NCBI GenBank assembly: GCA_002404055.1
Contig: DHIZ01000245.1
Span: 1 to 27,489, forward strand
Direction of reading: 5' to 3'
Length of the DNA: 27,489 bases
Origin: Chloroflexi bacterium UBA4733
GTDB taxonomy: Bacteria > Chloroflexota > UBA4733
Part shown: piece after piece, positions 4,750-16,198 of the stretch
Position numbering within the stretch: the stretch's first letter is position 1
How the letters are laid out: the number at the start of each line of letters is the position of its first letter
Program-made: the position numbers and the translations under genes
The notes under the pieces: model-generated
Told to the model about the DNA's origin: nothing
Seen by the model: only the letters and a program-made list of their open reading frames with translations
The model's database searches: none

Positions 4750-4769
4750 CGTAGGGGCAGGCCCCTACG
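4750..4769. repeat. Perfect 9-bp inverted repeat in a divergent promoter region
   Basis: CGTAGGGGC (4750-4758) and GCCCCTACG (4761-4769) are separated by AG. It lies between the divergent transferase and dehydratase genes, directly before a TACAAT (4775-4780) that would serve as the -10 of the rightward gene. It may be an operator or a copy of a dispersed palindrome. Confidence 0.5.
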
Positions 4770-7956: not shown

Positions 7957-9477
7957 TTACGGCTGGAGATGGGCTTTCAGGTACGCGTCTGCAGCGGCCG
8001 ATGCCTGAGTCGCTGCCTGTTGCATCGGCATTTGACCCTTCCAGCCAGGACTGAGGTTATCACTCACCAGCTTCTCAATATCACTAGAATCGACCGTGAT
8101 GAGCCGCTTGTACGGGTACTTTGTCAGGATAGTACCCATGGTTTCTGGATGCTCCAGTCGCGGAGCAGCGTCTTTTAGCTGCTTGCTGAAAACGGCCTGA
8201 GCGGCGGCCGTGAATGGAACGGCGACGAGAGAGGCGGCGTCAACCTCCTGGCCGCCTTCGCCAGCAAGAAACGTCATCCACTGCCAGGCAGCTTGTCGGA
8301 TGCGCTCACTCAGTCCTGCCGCAACAGTGTAGGACCAGATTGTAAAGTCGCTGGCATATCCTCTCTTGCCTTTTGGATAGGGTGCGAGGCCCCAGGTAAA
8401 GCTGTCGATGGCCTTGTAGAGGCCAAGACCCGTCGTCCAGCGAGTGGTCATCGCCGCCTTGCCTTGCATGAATGCCTTGTCAGCGTCCATGCCTGTTCCC
8501 TTCAGGACGGATGGCGTGGTCAGGTGGTACTTGGCGTCCAGATTGTAGAGGAAATCTAACGCCTCAACCGAGTCGGGCTGGGCATAATTGCAGACAGTGG
8601 GGCGCCGTGTGTCATCGAATTCGCTGCCCCCGTTGCTGTCCATCCACAGGTAGTCGAGACCGAATCCCGTCACACCGACCTGCTGCGTGGTAGTTCCGCT
8701 TACTCTGGTGAGCTTCTGGGCACTACTGAGAAAGCGGTCCCAGGTCCATTGGTCCTGCTGCCAAAGCTCGTAAGGGGAGGTGAGGCCGGCAGCGTCGAAT
8801 AAGTCGCGATTGTAGAAGAAGCCGGCAGTGAAGGCACTGCCGGTAACGCCGTACAGCTTGCCATCGACGGTCATGTCATCGAAGGCGGCTGGGGAGATGG
8901 CGCTGCGCTGGAAGGTGCGGTCCTGATTCGCTAAGGGCGTCAAATCCTCACTGATGTGCAACGTCAGAACGTAGCCGCGGATAAGGCCATGGTCGGCAAT
9001 GAACGTTTGTGGGGGCGTGCCGCCGGCGAAGGTGGTACGGATCTTGGTACTGTAATCAGCCCAGTTGACCACGTTGATCTTGATGCCTGGCGACTTCGCT
9101 TCAAAAGCGTCGGCGAGCCTTTGGAAGCGCGTTTGGTAGGTGACGTCGCCCCAGTGGGGAAAATCGAGCGTGATCGTGGCGCCGCCGAGGGCCGGGGTTG
9201 TCGACGCCGCGCTGGTGGCGACGGTTGCCGCTGAGGCGGCAGCGCTCGACGTGGCGCTCCGAGCCGTCGTCTGCGCTGTCGTCGCGCTCCCGGCGGCGCT
9301 TGCCGCGAGCTGCCTGCTCGTAGACGTCGCGGCGGTTGTCGCCGGACCACTCCCACCGCCACAGGCGGCCAGGACACCGACGGCGAGCGCGGCCGTGAAC
9401 TGGGCAGTACCGCGGAGGAGGGCGCGGCGCGTGGTCCGAGCGGATGGCCTGGTAACAGGGACGCTGTCGTTGCCCAT
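7957..9477 (-). CDS. ABC transporter sugar-binding lipoprotein, Tat-type (paralogue 1)
   Basis: A 506-residue extracellular solute-binding protein of family 1. The N-terminus has a twin-arginine RRALLRG (17-23), a hydrophobic helix and the lipobox LAAC with C39, followed by a Gly/Ala/Ser/Thr linker to about residue 90. The mature domain begins with ITLDFPHWGD and aligns along its length with the protein at 14282-15757: shared blocks include GTPP.TF, SPYELW/SPYDLW, D.WTWD, RW.TGL/RWITGI, EGGQE and the C-terminal YL.AH. The ATG at 9477 follows GAGAGG; the frame stays open a further 119 codons upstream, but that part reads antisense through the oxidoreductase gene's end and the promoter. An operator-bearing promoter lies 51-84 bp upstream. 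No permease or ATPase gene is adjacent, so its membrane partners are elsewhere. Confidence 0.92.
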   Translation of the reverse strand: MGNDSVPVTRPSARTTRRALLRGTAQFTAALAVGVLAACGGGSGPATTAATSTSRQLAASAAGSATTAQTTARSATSSAAASAATVATSAASTTPALGGATITLDFPHWGDVTYQTRFQRLADAFEAKSPGIKINVVNWADYSTKIRTTFAGGTPPQTFIADHGLIRGYVLTLHISEDLTPLANQDRTFQRSAISPAAFDDMTVDGKLYGVTGSAFTAGFFYNRDLFDAAGLTSPYELWQQDQWTWDRFLSSAQKLTRVSGTTTQQVGVTGFGLDYLWMDSNGGSEFDDTRRPTVCNYAQPDSVEALDFLYNLDAKYHLTTPSVLKGTGMDADKAFMQGKAAMTTRWTTGLGLYKAIDSFTWGLAPYPKGKRGYASDFTIWSYTVAAGLSERIRQAAWQWMTFLAGEGGQEVDAASLVAVPFTAAAQAVFSKQLKDAAPRLEHPETMGTILTKYPYKRLITVDSSDIEKLVSDNLSPGWKGQMPMQQAATQASAAADAYLKAHLQP

Positions 9478-9527
9478 GGGTGGCCTCTCGTTTCTCAGGT
9501 GAGGATGCCTCCACAAGCAGAGGCTAG

Positions 9528-9561
9528 CGCGTATACTAGCATGTGAGGATAATGGCGTCAA
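9528..9561 (-). promoter_or_regulatory. Promoter and operator (site A) of the first binding-protein gene
   Basis: On the minus strand TTGACG (9556-9561) and TAGTAT (9533-9538) are spaced 17 bp. The -10 lies inside a 20-bp palindrome, CGCGTATACTAGCATGTGAG (9528-9547, plus strand), the same sequence class as sites B, C and E. The -35 overlaps the stop codon of the oxidoreductase gene. The arrangement predicts repression by the GntR/LacI-type regulator. Confidence 0.7.
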
Positions 9562-10568
9562 GATTGGGGATGGGAATGAGCGATGGCCGCCCGCTGTCCA
9601 TCCTGGCCGCTGTGGATCGCGGCAGCGATCAGCGCTAAGGTCCCGAGGTTGGCCTTCCCGGAGATCGGCGTCGGCGCCCCGCTGAGGACGGCAGCCGTAA
9701 AGTGGTCGAGGACGACCTGCTCCGGGCGTGGCCCCTGCTCCGCCGCTAGTTCCTGGCGACCGCCGCCCGGCAGCCTGGCATAGAGGCCGCCGGCGTCCCA
9801 GCACAGCGCCCCGCGCTCGCACTCGATGCGCCACTCGAACAGGTCGTCCACGGAGGTGAAGGCGCCGGCGTAGGCGACCTCCAGTCCCCCCGCGAAGGTG
9901 ATGGCGGCCGTGACGGCGCCGCCCTGGTAGCGACTCCAGGGCGGATCGAAGCTGCGTGCGCTGATCGCCTCCGCCTCCCGACCGAAGACGGCGCGCATGT
10001 CATCGAAGTGGTGGACCGACATCTCCACGAGCATGGCGTGCGGCATGGTGAAAGCGCGCGGGTCGGGCCGGCGACGGTGGTGTACCATCGTGGCATAGCC
10101 AGGCGTGCCGAACTCGCCGGAGGCCAGCGCCGCGTGTAAGGCGCGCTGCTGCACGTTAAAGCGGTACTGCTGCGCCACGACGATCTGCCGGTGTTGCGCT
10201 TCGGCCAGGGCGACCAGCTCCTCGGCTTCCGCGAGCTGGTGGACGAAGGGCTTCTCCACCAGCACGTGCTTGCCGGCTTCCAATGCCAGGCGGATGAAGC
10301 GACCGTGCAGCGCCGATGGCGTGACCACCACCACGGCATCGGCCGGCACAGCGCGCAGCGCCTCTGCAAGGTCCGGAAAGCAGGCGTCGGTGGCCAGGCC
10401 CGTCATCGTGCATGCCCTGGCCAGGTTGTCCGTGTTCACGTCAACCAGGCCCACCGAGCGCCAGCGCTCGTCCGCGGCCATCAGCCGCAAGGGCCACTCC
10501 CCCCGCCCGGCGACGCCGACATGCACGGCACGCAACGGAGACGCATGGGACGCGGATACCACCATCAT
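9558..10568 (-). CDS. Gfo/Idh/MocA family NAD(P)-dependent oxidoreductase
   Basis: A 336-residue sugar or inositol dehydrogenase-like protein. An N-terminal Rossmann fold starts at VHVGVAGRGEW (15-25; the usual glycine-rich turn is altered), and E105-K106-P107 is the family's EKP motif with the conserved lysine. The C-terminal alpha/beta domain carries SVHHFDD (184-190), whose histidine and aspartate fit the substrate site. Enzymes of this family oxidise or reduce sugar hydroxyls. ATG at 10568 overlaps the stop of the upstream cupin gene in an ATGA, so the two are translationally coupled. It belongs to the operator-controlled sugar regulon. Sugar not identifiable. Confidence 0.9.
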   Translation of the reverse strand: MMVVSASHASPLRAVHVGVAGRGEWPLRLMAADERWRSVGLVDVNTDNLARACTMTGLATDACFPDLAEALRAVPADAVVVVTPSALHGRFIRLALEAGKHVLVEKPFVHQLAEAEELVALAEAQHRQIVVAQQYRFNVQQRALHAALASGEFGTPGYATMVHHRRRPDPRAFTMPHAMLVEMSVHHFDDMRAVFGREAEAISARSFDPPWSRYQGGAVTAAITFAGGLEVAYAGAFTSVDDLFEWRIECERGALCWDAGGLYARLPGGGRQELAAEQGPRPEQVVLDHFTAAVLSGAPTPISGKANLGTLALIAAAIHSGQDGQRAAIAHSHPQS

Positions 10569-11770
10569 GTCAGCTCCTCTCCAGCAACTGCCGGCGGTTC
10601 AGACGCCGCCGGTGGGACATTGGCAAAGGCCGGGTTGAAGGGCGCTTTGCCGGCGGCACTGCGGGCAATGATGGCGTCGACATAGCACTCGTTGCCCGGT
10701 TTGAAGCCTGGCAACGTCACCACGTTGGCCAGCACATCCAGCCCACGGTGTCCGGTGTCCGGCGGAATAACGACGACGTCGCCCGGCCGGAGCGGTGTTG
10801 CCTCAAAGCGCTCCCAATTGTCGATATCCGGGAAGCTGTGGAGCATGGCTCGGCGGCCGGCGGTATGCAGCCCCAGCGCCCCGGGGTCGAGCACGAAGTA
10901 GAGTTCGCATTGCGGCTTGCCGCCGCCGACGGCCTGCGCCGGGTGATAGTGGGTGCGGCTCTGTTCGGCAGCGATGTTGACGACGTGGCTGTTCAGCCGG
11001 TTGCGTCCGTCGCCTGTGGCAGCTCCCGCCTCGGTAAACCAGGTCAGCGGTAAGCGGCGAAAGGCGTCGAAGCCCGGCGCGCAACCTCCCGCCGTATCAC
11101 GTAGATAGGGCAGCCGCCGCGTCGCGGAGCAATGGGTCGTGGCGGCCTCGCCATCCTCGATGCACCAGAGGCGCACGTCGCCCCGGCCGCGCAGCGGTCG
11201 GTCGCGAGTCGCCACGAGCTGGTCCCCACAGGCGATGGGCTCCCAACCAGATTGCTGCCTGGTAGACCAACCCAGGCGTCCAGCCTGGGCGAGGACGTAG
11301 CGGAGAGCGTCACCTGCCGGCCCGGTTGCCCAGTGTTCGGTACTGCCGCAGGCTTCGCGCAGCCGCCAGAAGTCGCCCATGGGGTCGCCAGCATAGACTC
11401 GACCGTCGAACCGGCCCAGCAGGCCGTCCACGGCAGCACGTGCTGTTGGCGCCACGGCATCGCGCTGCCGGGAGAGGGTGGTCAGCGCCTCGCGCACCTG
11501 CGGAGCGAGCGGATCCGGTGCATAGACCGCCGGCAAAGGCGCGCTGTCGCCTTCCTGTGTGCGGTAGCCGCGCTCCAGCCAGATCGCAGCGGATCCCCGC
11601 TCGAGCCAGGCATAGATCACGCCTGACGTGCTCAGGAGCCACTCCCCTTCAAGAGTCTGCGCGCTCAGCGCAAAGCCGGGATTGTGCGCCGCAAAGGCCG
11701 CCTGGACGCAGTCCAGTGCAGGACCTCCAGTGATGCTGCCTTTGATAATGTCAGGCATGCTGTTCCCCAT
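10565..11770 (-). CDS. Unrecognised protein with a C-terminal cupin-like domain
   Basis: About 401 residues. I do not recognise the first two thirds; it is soluble, rich in Trp, Arg and Gly, and has no signal peptide. The last third reads as a cupin: SRTHYHPAQ followed by QCELYFVLDP supplies a His/His/Glu metal site, and PGDVVVIPPDTGHRGLD the second cupin motif with its histidine. Such domains bind sugars or act as isomerases and dioxygenases. The ATG at 11770 has AAGGGACAGG just before it; ATGs at 11785 and 11758 are alternatives. It overlaps the following oxidoreductase by 4 bp (ATGA), and its promoter carries operator site B, so it is the first gene of a two-gene unit in the sugar regulon. 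A sugar-binding or lactone/epimerase role is possible but unproven. Confidence 0.8.
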   Translation of the reverse strand: MGNSMPDIIKGSITGGPALDCVQAAFAAHNPGFALSAQTLEGEWLLSTSGVIYAWLERGSAAIWLERGYRTQEGDSAPLPAVYAPDPLAPQVREALTTLSRQRDAVAPTARAAVDGLLGRFDGRVYAGDPMGDFWRLREACGSTEHWATGPAGDALRYVLAQAGRLGWSTRQQSGWEPIACGDQLVATRDRPLRGRGDVRLWCIEDGEAATTHCSATRRLPYLRDTAGGCAPGFDAFRRLPLTWFTEAGAATGDGRNRLNSHVVNIAAEQSRTHYHPAQAVGGGKPQCELYFVLDPGALGLHTAGRRAMLHSFPDIDNWERFEATPLRPGDVVVIPPDTGHRGLDVLANVVTLPGFKPGNECYVDAIIARSAAGKAPFNPAFANVPPAASEPPAVAGEELT

Positions 11771-11795
11771 CCTGTCCCTTGCCATCAAGGGCGAC

Positions 11796-11843
11796 TGCGT
11801 ATACTAGCATACGCACTTTACCCGGCAAGGACCGATCCGTCAA
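11796..11843 (-). promoter_or_regulatory. Promoter and operator (site B) of the cupin/oxidoreductase unit
   Basis: The most symmetrical copy of the operator, TGCGTATACTAGCATACGCA (11796-11815), matches its own reverse complement at 18 of 20 positions. Two promoter readings are possible on the minus strand: TTGACG (11838-11843) with TAAAGT (11815-11820), 17 bp apart, which puts the start site inside the operator; or TTGCCG (11823-11828) with TAGTAT (11801-11806), 16 bp apart, in the same register as sites A, C and E. Either way a bound regulator would block transcription. Confidence 0.75.
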
Positions 11844-11871
11844 CCGGGCATCCGATGGCTCTACCGGCGAG

Positions 11872-13053
11872 CTAATCCGCGCCGGACGGCGCGACTGACC
11901 CGGTGAGCGCCGTGTACGGCGGGGCTGTCGACTCGCGGACGATGAGGGTCGGCTCGATGACATCGGCCTGCGCCGGCAACGCTGTTCCCTTCCAGACGGC
12001 CTCAATCAGCCGGAGCAGCAGTCGCGTTGCCCGCAGGCCAAACTCCACATGCGAGGTCCGAGCCGTCGTGAGGGCGGGATGCAGCGCTCGCGCTTCGGGA
12101 ATGTCGTCGACGCTCACGACGCTCAGATCGCTGGGGATGCTCCGGCCACGCGCCGCAATTGCCCGGTAGGCGCCGATGGCCAGAGAATCGCTGGCCACCA
12201 TGAGCGCGGTCAACTCACCGCCGTCCGGGCGCTGCAGAAGCTCCCGTACCGCTAGCTCTCCGCTCTCTGCGCTGAAGTCGGGAGTCGGCACGATCAGACC
12301 CGCATCCAGCTCGATCCCTGCTGCCGCCAGGGCGGCACTGTAGCCCTGAAACCGCTCCTCATGGAGCACGCGCGAGCGTGTTGATGCCACGAAGCCGATA
12401 CGCCGATGGCCGAGCCCCAGCAGATGGTCCACGCCGAGACGGACGGCCCGTTCCTCGTCGGCGATCACCGCAGATGCCGAGCGGCCAGGCAGGTGGCGCT
12501 TGACGAGCACGTAGGGAAACGTTGACCGGTCCAGGATATCGAGCTCCTGCGCCGAGATGTCCCCTGCGGACCGCACCAGCACGCCATCGGTGGTGTGTTC
12601 CTCGCGGGCGGTTGCAAGCCAGTTCGGTAGTTCCTCAGGCTGGGCGAGGTAGGCGAGCCCGAGCGCGGCGCTGGAGTCCCAGGCCGCCTCGGCCACCCCT
12701 CCCACCAGCTCACCAAAGGCGCTGGCGATCATCTGATGGCCACGCTGCTGGGCCTCCTTGAACTCCAAGATCAAGAGCGTGACATGCTTGCGCGGCCCCT
12801 CTGCTCGCACGAAGGTTCCGATGCCATTGCGGCGCTCAATGAGTCCGGCGCGGACTAACTCCAGCATCACCCGTCGTGCCGTCACGGAACTGACGCCGTA
12901 CTGGACTGCCAGCTCCCGCTCCGAAAAGAACGCCGCGCCAGGAACGATCTCGCCTTGGCGGATGGGGCGGGCGAGCAACTCCACTAACTGGACGTACAGC
13001 GGCGTGAAGGACTGTCGATCAAGGTCAGCGGGCGATGTACCGAGCATGAGCAT
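11872..13053 (-). CDS. GntR/LacI-type chimeric transcriptional regulator (AraR-like architecture)
   Basis: A 393-residue regulator. Residues 13-83 are a GntR winged helix-turn-helix: PLYVQLVELL, then SERELAVQYGVSSVTARR and the wing IERRNGIGTFV. Residues 90-375 are a LacI/periplasmic-binding-protein-type effector domain (TDGVLVRS, HLLGLGHRRIGFV, ALMVASDSLAIGAYRA, SVVSVDDIPEA). The same fusion of DNA-binding and sugar-sensing parts is known in Bacillus AraR. Effectors are usually mono- or disaccharides that release the protein from DNA. The ATG at 13053 was chosen; another is at 13047. A 20-bp operator overlaps its own promoter 39-58 bp upstream, so it is probably autoregulated and controls sites A, B and E as well. 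Confidence 0.92.
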   Translation of the reverse strand: MLMLGTSPADLDRQSFTPLYVQLVELLARPIRQGEIVPGAAFFSERELAVQYGVSSVTARRVMLELVRAGLIERRNGIGTFVRAEGPRKHVTLLILEFKEAQQRGHQMIASAFGELVGGVAEAAWDSSAALGLAYLAQPEELPNWLATAREEHTTDGVLVRSAGDISAQELDILDRSTFPYVLVKRHLPGRSASAVIADEERAVRLGVDHLLGLGHRRIGFVASTRSRVLHEERFQGYSAALAAAGIELDAGLIVPTPDFSAESGELAVRELLQRPDGGELTALMVASDSLAIGAYRAIAARGRSIPSDLSVVSVDDIPEARALHPALTTARTSHVEFGLRATRLLLRLIEAVWKGTALPAQADVIEPTLIVRESTAPPYTALTGSVAPSGAD

Positions 13054-13091
13054 AATGAGCCTAGCCTACCATGACCGCACACGTGCGCCAC

Positions 13092-13125
13092 CGCGTATGC
13101 TAGGATATGCGCTACGGAAGTGGAA
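13092..13125 (-). promoter_or_regulatory. Promoter and operator (site C) of the regulator gene
   Basis: Minus-strand TTCCAC (13120-13125) and TAGCAT (13097-13102) are 17 bp apart. The -10 sits at positions 6-11 of the palindrome CGCGTATGCTAGGATATGCG (13092-13111; 16 of 20 positions symmetric), as in sites A and E. This indicates autorepression. Confidence 0.65.
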
Positions 13126-13177
13126 CCGCGCTCGACTGGGCCCGTCTCTCCGCGGCGCGCAGCCGGCGGGCATCCTG

Positions 13178-14179
13178 CTACAGCCAGCGTTGCATCCAAG
13201 GCAAGGCTTTGCGGCCGCTGAAGGCGTGGCCGCCATCGAACACTTCCATCTCGCAGCGATCAGCGCCGCCGAGCAGATCATAGGCGCGCCGCACGATGGC
13301 GAACGCCTCCTGGGCGCCTTCCACGGGGAAGCCCGTGTCGCGCTTTCCCGTCTCCACCAACAGGGGGCGTGGCGCAATCAGTGCAGCTATGTCGCCCATC
13401 TCCGCGTACTTCAGGATGCCCGGTACGTAGCCGCAGTTACAGTGCTCCACGGCAAAAAAGGTCTGACGGAAGGTATTGAGGAAGCCGCTGATGACGGCCG
13501 CCTGGATTCGGTCGTCCAACGCCGCGAGGTAGAGCGTCATCTCGCCACCCAGGGAGAGGCCGACACAGCCGATGCGATCGGAAATCACCTCGGGACGGCT
13601 CTGGAGGAGGTCGACGGCGCGTTGCAGATCCCACAGCCGTCGACCCATGATAGTCTGACCGAGCAGTTGCAGCTTCAGGTTGGTGAGCCGGTAGCCCTTC
13701 GCAGCATCGCCCCCGGCGAACTGCTGGCGCTCGCCGAAGCCGAGGTGTTCGGGGGCCAAGGTCACAAAACCGGCCTCGGCGAAACGAACGCCGTAGTCCT
13801 GAGTCGTGCCTTTCTGGGCCACAGCCTCCTTTCCGAGGCCGTGGCCCGGCGGGCACAGCACTGCCGGCCGGGGGAGAGACACATCCTTGGGAATTAGGAG
13901 ATAGGCAACCGCCGAGACGCCGGCCGCCGTGTCGTAAACGATCTTTTCCCGGCGGTAGGCCTCTTCTACCTGCACGTCCACGGTGCGCGGATTCAGCGGG
14001 ACGCGGGCGTCGTCGCCAGGTGCGCCGAGGAGGTCCGCGAGGCGACCGCGCAACGCCCGGCGCCATTCCTCCCACTCGGCCTGGTCGGTCGCTCGGAAGC
14101 GCAGCAACTGGGGATGCTCATCGTAGTATCGGTCGAACCACTCCGGTTCAAGCTGCAGCTGTTCGGCTAGATCGTCCAC
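13178..14179 (-). CDS. Alpha/beta-hydrolase of the acetyl xylan esterase/dienelactone hydrolase type
   Basis: A 333-residue serine hydrolase. The nucleophile elbow is G207-L-S209-L-G-G, the acid is probably D281 (GKRDTGFP) and the histidine H318 (DGGHAF). Residues 100-115 (PRPAVLCPPGHG) give the oxyanion loop. No signal peptide, so it acts in the cytoplasm, presumably on imported acylated sugars. The GTG at 14179 follows GAAGGGA at a good distance. It lies 102 nt downstream of the second binding-protein gene on the same strand, with a stable hairpin between them, and upstream of the regulator's own promoter. Acetyl ester removal is the likeliest reaction by family; the true substrate is open. 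Confidence 0.87.
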   Translation of the reverse strand: MDDLAEQLQLEPEWFDRYYDEHPQLLRFRATDQAEWEEWRRALRGRLADLLGAPGDDARVPLNPRTVDVQVEEAYRREKIVYDTAAGVSAVAYLLIPKDVSLPRPAVLCPPGHGLGKEAVAQKGTTQDYGVRFAEAGFVTLAPEHLGFGERQQFAGGDAAKGYRLTNLKLQLLGQTIMGRRLWDLQRAVDLLQSRPEVISDRIGCVGLSLGGEMTLYLAALDDRIQAAVISGFLNTFRQTFFAVEHCNCGYVPGILKYAEMGDIAALIAPRPLLVETGKRDTGFPVEGAQEAFAIVRRAYDLLGGADRCEMEVFDGGHAFSGRKALPWMQRWL

Positions 14180-14200
14180 GTTGTTCCCTTCGGTTGGTTG

Positions 14201-14222
14201 GCCGGCAGCACCCGCTGCCGGC
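14201..14222. repeat. Perfect 9-bp stem-loop after the second binding-protein gene
   Basis: GCCGGCAGC (14201-14209) and GCTGCCGGC (14214-14222) flank ACCC. It lies between the binding-protein stop (14282) and hydrolase start (14179). No T-run follows, so it is more likely an RNA 3'-stabilising or attenuating hairpin that raises binding-protein mRNA over the downstream gene, as is common in transporter operons. Confidence 0.55.
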
Positions 14223-14281
14223 TACGCATCGACCCTGGCGCCGGGGCTGGGACCGCGCAGGATGCCGCTCCGGCCGGCTGC

Positions 14282-15757
14282 TCAGAACGTTTGCGGGTGC
14301 GCCTGCAGATAACTGTTGACCTGCTCCGTCGCAGCCGTGGTCGTTGTCTTCGCGTCGCTCTTGCCGGCCCAGAAGGGTGCCATGTTCTGATTGAGCAGTT
14401 TGCTGATGTCAGTCACGTCTACGGAGATGAGCCGAGAATTCGGGTAGGCGTTGAGAATCTCCGAGATCGCCTCGGGGTGCTCCATCTTCGGCAACTGCTG
14501 CAGAGCTTGCGTGAAGACGGCTTGCGCCTGCTTGGTAAAGGGAACGGCACCGAGATCCTTCGCCTCCATCTCCTGACCGCCCTCGCCGGTGTACCACTTG
14601 AGCCACTGCCAGCCGGCGTCGCGCCGGCTGGCATTTGTCAGACCCTTGGCCATGCCGTAGGCCCAGTGCGTATAGTCCGACGCATAGGCCTGCTTCTTCG
14701 CGTAGGGGACGGCGCCCCAGGTAAAATCCTGGATGGCTTTGAAGTTGGCGATGCCGGTGATCCAGCGCGACATGGTGGCTTGCTTCCCATTGGTGAAGGC
14801 GGTCGTGGCGTCCTTCTGCCCAGAGTCCTTGTAGAAGTTGGCGTCGTAAATCCGGTACTTGTTTCCCATGTCGTAGGAGAACTGGAGACCGGCCATGTCG
14901 ACGTCAGTGTCGTAGAGGCACTTCGTCGGCGCCTTCACGCTATCGTATTCCTGGCCCCCCGCCGTGTTGATCCATAGACGGGAGAGGCCGAGGTCCGAGC
15001 CTTGCTGCGTCGTTTTGGTGCCGTCACGCTTGGTCAGCTTCGTCGCCGCCTCGATGTAGACATCCCACGTCCACTTATCCTGCTTCCAGAGATCGTATGG
15101 TGAATCAAGGCCGGCCTGCCGGTAGAGGTCGGCGTTGTAGAAGTACACGTTGGTAAAGGCCCACCCCGCCAGAGCAAACAGCTTGTCACCCATTATCAAA
15201 CCTTCACGGGTGACCGCCGGCAAGGCGTTCAGGTCAAAGCTCTTATCCTGGCGAGCAAAGGGTTGAAGATCATCGAGCATGCCTTTCTTGGCATAGGAGA
15301 ACACGAGCTGATGGTCAGACCAGAATGTGGTTGGCGGCGTGCCGGCGGCGAAGAGGGCGGTCAATTTCTTGTCGTAGTCGGACGCAACCGGCACCGGTGT
15401 GATCTTCCGCTCGGCATACTGCTTCTCGTAGGCGTCGATCTTGTGCTGCTCCTGCGCTTCGTAGATGGTCGGCTCACCCCAGTTGGGGAAAAAGAAGTCA
15501 ATGGTACTGGACGATGTAGCCGCTGCTGCCTTGGTGGGAACGGCGGCCGGCACCGGAGTGGCCGCGATGGCGGACGATGCAGCGAGGCTCGGCGTCGTCA
15601 CCGAGGCAGTGACCGCGGCAGTGGTCGCCGGCGCGCCGCAGCCCGCGAGCACCCCGATCCCCGCGCCGCCGGCCATACCTGCCGCCAACAGCAGCAGGCG
15701 ACGTCGGGACAGTGCCACCTTCGTGTTTCCGGGTCCAGCGCCAGCCAGTCGTGCCAT
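14282..15757 (-). CDS. ABC transporter sugar-binding lipoprotein, Tat-type (paralogue 2)
   Basis: A 491-residue family 1 extracellular solute-binding protein, paralogous to that at 7957-9477. Residues 18-20 are RRR before a hydrophobic helix, and LAGC with C40 is the lipobox, so export is probably by Tat or Sec with lipid anchoring; a low-complexity linker follows. The mature domain has the shared blocks SPYDLWKQDKWTWD, RWITGI, EGGQE and a C-terminal YLQAH. The ATG at 15757 follows GGAAAGGA and gives a standard signal peptide. The frame is also open from an ATG at 15832 with its own AAAGGAG, which would add 25 residues with no family similarity. Its promoter appears to be at site E, giving a leader of about 250 nt. 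No permease gene is nearby. Confidence 0.92.
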   Translation of the reverse strand: MARLAGAGPGNTKVALSRRRLLLLAAGMAGGAGIGVLAGCGAPATTAAVTASVTTPSLAASSAIAATPVPAAVPTKAAAATSSSTIDFFFPNWGEPTIYEAQEQHKIDAYEKQYAERKITPVPVASDYDKKLTALFAAGTPPTTFWSDHQLVFSYAKKGMLDDLQPFARQDKSFDLNALPAVTREGLIMGDKLFALAGWAFTNVYFYNADLYRQAGLDSPYDLWKQDKWTWDVYIEAATKLTKRDGTKTTQQGSDLGLSRLWINTAGGQEYDSVKAPTKCLYDTDVDMAGLQFSYDMGNKYRIYDANFYKDSGQKDATTAFTNGKQATMSRWITGIANFKAIQDFTWGAVPYAKKQAYASDYTHWAYGMAKGLTNASRRDAGWQWLKWYTGEGGQEMEAKDLGAVPFTKQAQAVFTQALQQLPKMEHPEAISEILNAYPNSRLISVDVTDISKLLNQNMAPFWAGKSDAKTTTTAATEQVNSYLQAHPQTF

Positions 15758-15814
15758 GCCATCCGTCCTTTCCTCGTAGCATCCGATCAGGGAACCAGCG
15801 TCTAAGGGTGCTAC

Positions 15815-15834
15815 TGCGTATACTGAGGGCATTT
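15815..15834. promoter_or_regulatory. Operator half-site (site D)
   Basis: TGCGTATACT (15815-15824) matches the left half of the regulon palindrome exactly, but the right half (GAGGGCATTT) does not. It sits 58-77 bp before the ATG at 15757 and has no -35 at 17 bp, so it is probably an auxiliary or decayed site, not the promoter operator. Confidence 0.45.
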
Positions 15835-16018
15835 CCTAACTCCTTTTGGGAGCGCTTCAGGTGTGAAATGTACCGATCGCAGTACCCGCGACGGCCTCTC
15901 CCAGTTCGATCAAGGCCAGTGTGGTAGCCACCGTGGCACCAAATTGGCGTCAATTAGCCGTTGCGGGTAGCATCGCCAGACCTATAAGAGGCTATAATTA
16001 GAGTTAGGAAATACCCTC
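15825..16018 (-). promoter_or_regulatory. Leader RNA of the second binding-protein gene, ends pairing over 18 bp
   Basis: GAGGGCATTTCCTAACTC (15825-15842) and GAGTTAGGAAATACCCTC (16001-16018) are inverted copies. In the minus-strand transcript they form 18 consecutive pairs including one G-U, closing a 158-nt loop. The 3' arm contains the ATG at 15832 and begins within the AAAGGAG before it, so pairing would hide that start. Transcription from site E would begin at or very near the 5' arm. The rest of 15758-16392 has no recognisable gene apart from the short element at 16057-16198; a perfect TATAAT (15993-15998, plus strand) lacks a -35. A riboswitch, an RNA switch or a remnant of a small transposable element are all open. 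Confidence 0.5.
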
Positions 16019-16048
16019 TATACTAGCATACGCGGCCCCGCAAGTCAA
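16015..16048 (-). promoter_or_regulatory. Promoter and operator (site E) of the second binding-protein gene
   Basis: Minus-strand TTGACT (16043-16048) and TAGTAT (16020-16025) are 17 bp apart, with the -10 at positions 6-11 of the palindrome CCTCTATACTAGCATACGCG (16015-16034). This is the same register as sites A and C. The start site would fall near 16013, about 255 nt before the coding region. Confidence 0.65.
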
Positions 16049-16056
16049 TGGGCAGC

Positions 16057-16198
16057 GGTACGAGAAGTGCGCCACAAAGTTTCGCAGTGCCCGCTTGCCT
16101 TCCTCAGAGGAATGGGGCGAACGCACGGTGTCGCACTGGATCTCCCCCCTGGAGAGCGACCGAGGGGCGCGAAAACTTGTGGCGCACCTCGGTACGAG
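16057..16198. mobile_element. MITE-like element with inverted ends and an 8-bp target duplication
   Basis: GGTACGAG occurs in direct orientation at 16057-16064 and 16191-16198. Between them lie inverted arms of 19 bp with two mismatches: GTGCGCCACAAAGTTTCGC (16067-16085) and GCGAAAACTTGTGGCGCAC (16169-16187). The roughly 126-bp interior codes for nothing recognisable. Inverted ends bounded by a direct duplication are the mark of a non-autonomous transposon; an 8-bp duplication fits IS256- or IS66-like families, but the parent is unknown. A structured RNA is the alternative. Confidence 0.6.

Follow-up and report, generated by a model that had tools for sequence, protein, structure and literature searches.

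A described regulator close to the one studied here is AraR of Bacillus subtilis, which joins a GntR winged helix to a LacI/GalR-type sugar domain and uses several palindromic operators in promoter regions (excerpts of PMC4494728 and PMC4218819). The AraR operator consensus, At(T/A)tGTaCGTAcaa(A/T)T, has the arrangement GT-N4-AC (PMC4218819, excerpt), and sites of the FadR and HutC types fit the general GntR form NyGTNxACNy with x = 2-4 nt (PMC4494728, excerpt). Within these families the same guanine contact is made by Arg48 of NagR, Arg45 of FadR and Arg41 of AraR, as given in an excerpt of PMC4333415. Sites of the LacI family, from which the sugar domain derives its name, carry a central CG pair for 1173 of the 1251 transcription factors with even palindromes (PMC4052901, excerpt). 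GntR-LacI hybrids, operators placed on promoters and autoregulation are already known; what is new in the locus described below is the letters of the operator.

We analyzed a stretch of 27,489 nucleotides of Chloroflexi bacterium UBA4733 (contig DHIZ01000245.1), referred to here as the window, in which four CTAG-centred sites (A, B, C and E) lie in front of genes of one cluster. We consider it probable that these sites serve as operators for the GntR-LacI regulator whose gene lies at 11872-13053; by occupying the predicted -10 element, this protein would act as a repressor. This reading draws on a motif that stands far above chance, the two domains of the regulator, the promoters predicted at A and E, and the presence of the motif core upstream of the regulator's ortholog in a second genome, G758.

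The gene cluster and its regulator

All genes of the cluster lie on the minus strand. In order of coordinates they encode an extracellular solute-binding protein (binding protein 1, 7957..9477; PF01547, E 2.2e-30), whose second-best PDB match is the arabino-oligosaccharide-binding protein 6rjy (E 3.6e-22); a Gfo/Idh/MocA-type oxidoreductase (9558..10568; PF01408), whose open reading frame overlaps the cupin gene by 4 bp; a two-domain cupin-like protein to which no function was assigned (10565..11758); the regulator (11872..13053); an Abhydrolase_7 or acetyl-xylan-esterase-like hydrolase (13178..14179; PF12715, E 7.8e-20; PDB 3nuz, E 2.3e-14); and a second extracellular solute-binding protein (binding protein 2, 14282..15757; PF01547, E 3.2e-19 when scanned from 15760). 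As judged by eye from the list of open reading frames, the two solute-binding genes within 7957-15757 have no obvious adjacent gene for a transporter permease. A Pfam scan of the cupin-like protein returned no family above cut-off, with Cupin_2 only at E 0.075; its AlphaFold model has a pLDDT of 88.6, and the nearest PDB folds are oxalate decarboxylases at TM < 0.4. The family of this protein has at least 404 members, labelled only hypothetical among the matches listed.

The initial annotation had recognized a GntR/LacI-type regulator at 11872-13053, and Pfam finds both domains, an N-terminal GntR winged helix (PF00392, E 2.4e-14, residues 19-82) and a C-terminal LacI-type Peripla_BP_3 domain (PF13377, E 1.6e-32, residues 208-376); among the best 25 of 35 NCBIfam families, none reached its cut-off. 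The protein shares this architecture with the AraR subfamily. It also resembles LacI-family regulators in its sugar-binding domain, in the even palindrome and in a local regulon that would include its own gene (PMC4052901, excerpt), but the LacI helix-turn-helix is absent from its Pfam hits and a GntR domain stands in its place. When the DNA-binding domain was compared with solved structures, NagR/YvoA ranked first (4u0y, E 1.9e-13), a putative transcriptional regulator second and AraR third. The likeness to NagR (YvoA) and HutC extends to Arg38 of NagR, which aligns with Arg46 of the window regulator, whereas the UTRA domain of that group is missing from the Pfam hits. A search of 5.8 billion proteins retrieved eight relatives at 44-69% identity besides the window's own entry (P0001), followed by a gap and then by more distant proteins at about 30-46% identity.

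The binding proteins, one of them near an arabino-oligosaccharide binder, together with the acetyl-xylan-esterase-like hydrolase, the oxidoreductase and the two-domain cupin, suggest that the signal sensed by the regulator may be a product of plant polysaccharides.

Four sites with shared letters

The palindromic sites and the half-site reported in the initial annotation were all found at their positions, and the four full sites are close to one consensus. No strand is assigned to the full sites. Site A (9528..9547; CGCGTATACTAGCATGTGAG, 25.2 bits) lies before the gene of binding protein 1; site B (11796..11815; 28.9 bits), before the cupin gene, is an exact match to the consensus; site C (13092..13111; CGCGTATGCTAGGATATGCG, 27.6 bits) precedes the regulator gene; and site E (16015..16034; CCTCTATACTAGCATACGCG, 24.5 bits) precedes the gene of binding protein 2, in whose leader the half-site D (15815..15824, plus strand; TGCGTATACT) is found. 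As had been proposed, each of A, B, C and E stands before a gene, and in every case that gene and the promoter direction are the same, on the minus strand.

Scores were obtained with a profile made from the full 20-bp sequences of A, B, C and E, so that their 24.5-28.9 bits include the contribution of each site to its own profile; the best of all other places in the window has 11.0. In a leave-one-out comparison the sites still scored 19.5-24.1 bits, against at most 12.3 anywhere else in the window, and 200 windows simulated with a first-order Markov model never exceeded 16.8. The tetranucleotide CTAG at the centre is scarce in the window, with 22 occurrences seen against about 91 expected from base composition. 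Symmetry is less uniform: 9 of 10 positions pair in B and 8 of 10 in C, but only 6 of 10 in A and in E, and by this measure A and E are ordinary while B and C are strong palindromes. The case for a common motif therefore rests on the shared letters more than on symmetry.

Fitted to the GntR form NyGTNxACNy, the window sites agree only with x = 10, a wider spacing than the 2-4 nt of the FadR and HutC types. They have GT-N10-AC around CTAG where the AraR operator has GT-N4-AC, and they are centred on CTAG where most LacI sites are centred on a CG pair. The initial annotation did not recognize this operator from any described regulator, and our search of open-licence literature, in which titles and the beginnings of abstracts were covered, likewise did not find its letters in print as a bacterial operator.

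Other repeats were seen in the same region. The side of half-site D and site E form an inverted repeat (15815-15842 / 16001-16034) with 18-nt arms that are 94% complementary and left edges exactly 200 bp apart, and the 5' end of the leader RNA of binding protein 2 could pair with the D side. We do not claim a structured leader, since its folding z was -1.9 and 10 of 200 shuffles were equally stable; an Rfam scan of the window gave zero matches. Half-site D was also considered as a second promoter and set aside, no -35 being seen there by eye. A further inverted repeat, 22 nt long and 86% complementary (16064-16085 / 16169-16190), lies just beyond promoter E, and a palindrome of another sequence, CGTAGGGGCAGGCCCCTACG, with 9 of 10 pairs, lies between two genes at 4750-4769.

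Predicted promoters within the sites

A generic sigma-70 scan that was blind to the motif and took its background from shuffles covered 7.6 kb and found five sigma-70-like sites where 1.0 was expected. Two of these are promoters A (9533..9561, minus strand; TTGACG-17-TAGTAT, also found by script) and E (16020..16048, minus strand; TTGACT-17-TAGTAT), each with a TG ahead of the -10, a match of 9/12, and the -10 within the palindrome. Their -35 elements match at 5/6 positions, a level reached by 0.3% of window positions. In the initial annotation A, C and E each had a -35 at a spacing of exactly 17 bp from a TAGTAT or TAGCAT; this stands at A and E, but the hexamer at C, TTCCAC, matches at 2/6, a chance level reached by 41% of positions. 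At B it had allowed the same register at 16 bp, and a script does find TTGCCG-16-TAGTAT there (11801..11828, minus strand), with a -35 match of 4/6 that 2.7% of positions reach. It competes with another promoter from the generic scan, TTGACG-17-TAAAGT (11815..11843, minus strand), which abuts the operator and ends on the first base of site B. On the opposite strand no site has a -35 above 2/6 at 17 bp. From the scan and the frequencies of the -35 matches, a promoter inside the operator is secure at A and E, ambiguous at B and unsupported at C.

Counted from the end of TAGTAT or TAGCAT, the start codon lies 42 nt away at B and 43 nt away at C; site A, with the start codon at 9477-9475, has 55-56 nt and site E has 262 nt. 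Gene order would assign binding protein 1 to A, the regulator to C, the cupin gene with the overlapping oxidoreductase gene to B, and binding protein 2, probably with the hydrolase, to E. Gene spacing suggests that the pairs behind B and E are operons.

In the proposed mechanism a dimer of the regulator would bind the palindrome and keep RNA polymerase off by steric hindrance, covering the -10 element at both A and E and, at B, either that element or its edge. Release of the regulator from DNA would follow when the LacI-type domain takes up a sugar or sugar acid, and through C the regulator would limit its own synthesis. Sites of this kind could serve as small, tight switches.

A missing arginine and a changed putative operator

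The residue of the window regulator that aligns with the guanine-contacting arginine (Arg41 of AraR, Arg48 of NagR) is Ser56. In the close full-length proteins this position holds Ser, Thr, Ala or Val (8 of 8), and Ser in the G758 ortholog, whereas in the more distant GntR-LacI proteins it is Arg in five of six and Glu in one. On the side of the DNA, operator positions -5/-4 are A-T in all eight half-sites, while NagR reads G-G there (PMC4333415, excerpt). With the arginine absent and A-T at these positions, protein and DNA depart from the family at a matching place, and one departure may have caused the other. An arginine-guanine contact that is widely shared would here have been lost in nature together with a change in the operator, which opens the GntR reading code to tests by single swaps. 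For a group of sugar-sensing regulators whose operators our searches did not find described, the sites also offer a readable operator together with a predicted partner protein.

The ortholog in G758 and the alternative explanations

We searched for the regulator in overlapping sets of 158, 400, 41 and 29 Chloroflexota genomes, which gave 1, 3, 1 and 1 matches, respectively, at E 1e-60 or better; in the largest set four candidates were scored per genome, so misses are possible. G758 holds a close ortholog (216 of 362 aligned residues identical), and this was the one ortholog locus read; of the other matches, G157 encodes a longer, related type and G605 a weaker one (E 9.7e-78). Among genome contigs, 43 loci were at best 42-43% identical (Rubrobacter records) and none was a close ortholog; the viral contigs searched gave none, and the 2473 plasmid records, all below 60% identity, were set aside.

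In G758 the regulator gene runs divergently from a BNR-repeat gene, behind which come genes for a binding protein and an oxidoreductase. Upstream of the regulator stands CTTGTATGCTAGCATGAATG, which scores 17.9 bits against 9.5 for the next place in 20 kb and is the single match to GTATNCTAGNATR in 5.6 Mb; a control with the reversed pattern also has one match, elsewhere. The minus strand there carries TTGCAC at a spacing of exactly 17 bp from TAGCAT, the distance seen at A and E, although this -35 is weak (3/6, reached by 14% of window positions). Because the score is close to the best of 5.5 Mb of simulated sequence (16.8), the control has a match too, and the outer GCGTAT arms are missing, the weight of the G758 site rests on its place and not on its score. 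With two mismatches allowed there are 7 places in G758 against 11 for the control, and thus no further regulon there. Across the 400 Chloroflexota genomes the 18-bp core had no exact match and one with a single mismatch, and a hand count of motif places gave 32 in 30 genomes against 48 for the reversed control; 20 of the 32 were read, none with a relative of the regulator nearby. The core thus recurs upstream of the G758 ortholog, and in the 400 genomes it is seen only at background level.

That match bears on the strongest alternative, in which the sites are operators of another regulator encoded elsewhere and the local GntR-LacI gene is merely one of its targets. The local protein does lack the arginine responsible for reading the usual GT box, yet the only core match of G758 sits upstream of G758's own ortholog, and local LacI-type regulators commonly control their own genes (PMC4052901, excerpt); we regard this alternative as unlikely. 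Less probable still is that the sites resemble one another mainly as members of one promoter class with an extended -10, TATGCTAGTAT, and that their symmetry is incidental. The limited pairing in A and E agrees with it, as does G731, where TTGACG-18-TAGTAT occurs with the same TATGCTAGTATA and no relative of the regulator lies in its 3 kb, but the strong symmetry of B and C, the YGCGTATRCT arms outside the -10, and the palindrome retained at C, where the -35 does not exceed chance, speak against it.

GCGTAT/ATACGC pairs beside the G758 regulator were considered as further operators and rejected, the arm pattern GCGTAT-N4-6-ATACGC occurring 185 times in that genome (control 0). Many copies are paired about 33 bp apart (for example L055 16735-16785), and they constitute a REP-like repeat family. 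Similar arms can therefore be repeats in this phylum, but that the window palindromes are such dispersed repeats, near promoters by accident, is very improbable, since the G758 copies lack CTAG and, among those listed, nearly always have 4 bp between the arms, GCGTAT-Nx-ATACGC (x = 0 to 12) is seen just once in the window, at site B, and every window site stands before a gene of the same direction, two of them with a fixed -35 spacing. Operators of the local regulator remain our preferred reading of the four sites.

A related clade of longer regulators

A longer regulator with the same two domains was found in five genomes of Rubrobacteraceae kin (5 of 39 in the order) and in the Chloroflexota genome G157, and it carries Val where the guanine-contacting arginine would sit. 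Near these genes we found a different palindrome, TTAGTGTACTAA, which is likely the operator of the Rubrobacteraceae-kin clade. It occurs at six places in four of the nine genomes searched, 1.6-4.8 kb from the regulator (reversed control 0): L057 4758 (plus strand), L058 15194 (minus), L059 11981 and 6910 (both minus), and L002 200 and 5271 (both plus). Since G001 and G249 hardly differ in this region, the independent sites number fewer than six. The palindrome overlaps a predicted -10 at four of the six places (TTGACA/TTGACC-17/18-TATATT) and does not at the other two. G399 and G157 encode the longer regulator and have no exact TTAGTGTACTAA; in G399 a near copy, CATAGTGTACTAA, is found at TTGACA-17-CATAGT immediately ahead of the regulator.

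We advance, tentatively and at slightly less than even confidence, a broader reading: regulators of the window's clade, which lack the guanine-reading arginine, would read a CTAG-centred GT-N10-AC fused to the -10, and the related clade would use the same layout with the letters TTAGTGTACTAA. Operator and promoter would then share letters, and the repressor would take the place where the polymerase opens the DNA.

The regulator is preceded in G001 and G249 by a gene that encodes, or resembles one encoding, a GH28 polygalacturonase (Pfam on the G001 copy) and in G203 by an SDR gene, which hints, as a lead only, that the longer-regulator clade might sense pectin or uronate. A further difference from the window regulator is a C-terminal match to short-chain dehydrogenases in four of the seven longer regulators scanned; G203, G173, G157 and P0009 show the match, that of P0009 falling below the Pfam cut-off, and G001, G249 and G399 do not. 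The GntR-LacI regulators with this extension (L048, L049, L047 and P0009) represent an unusual fusion.
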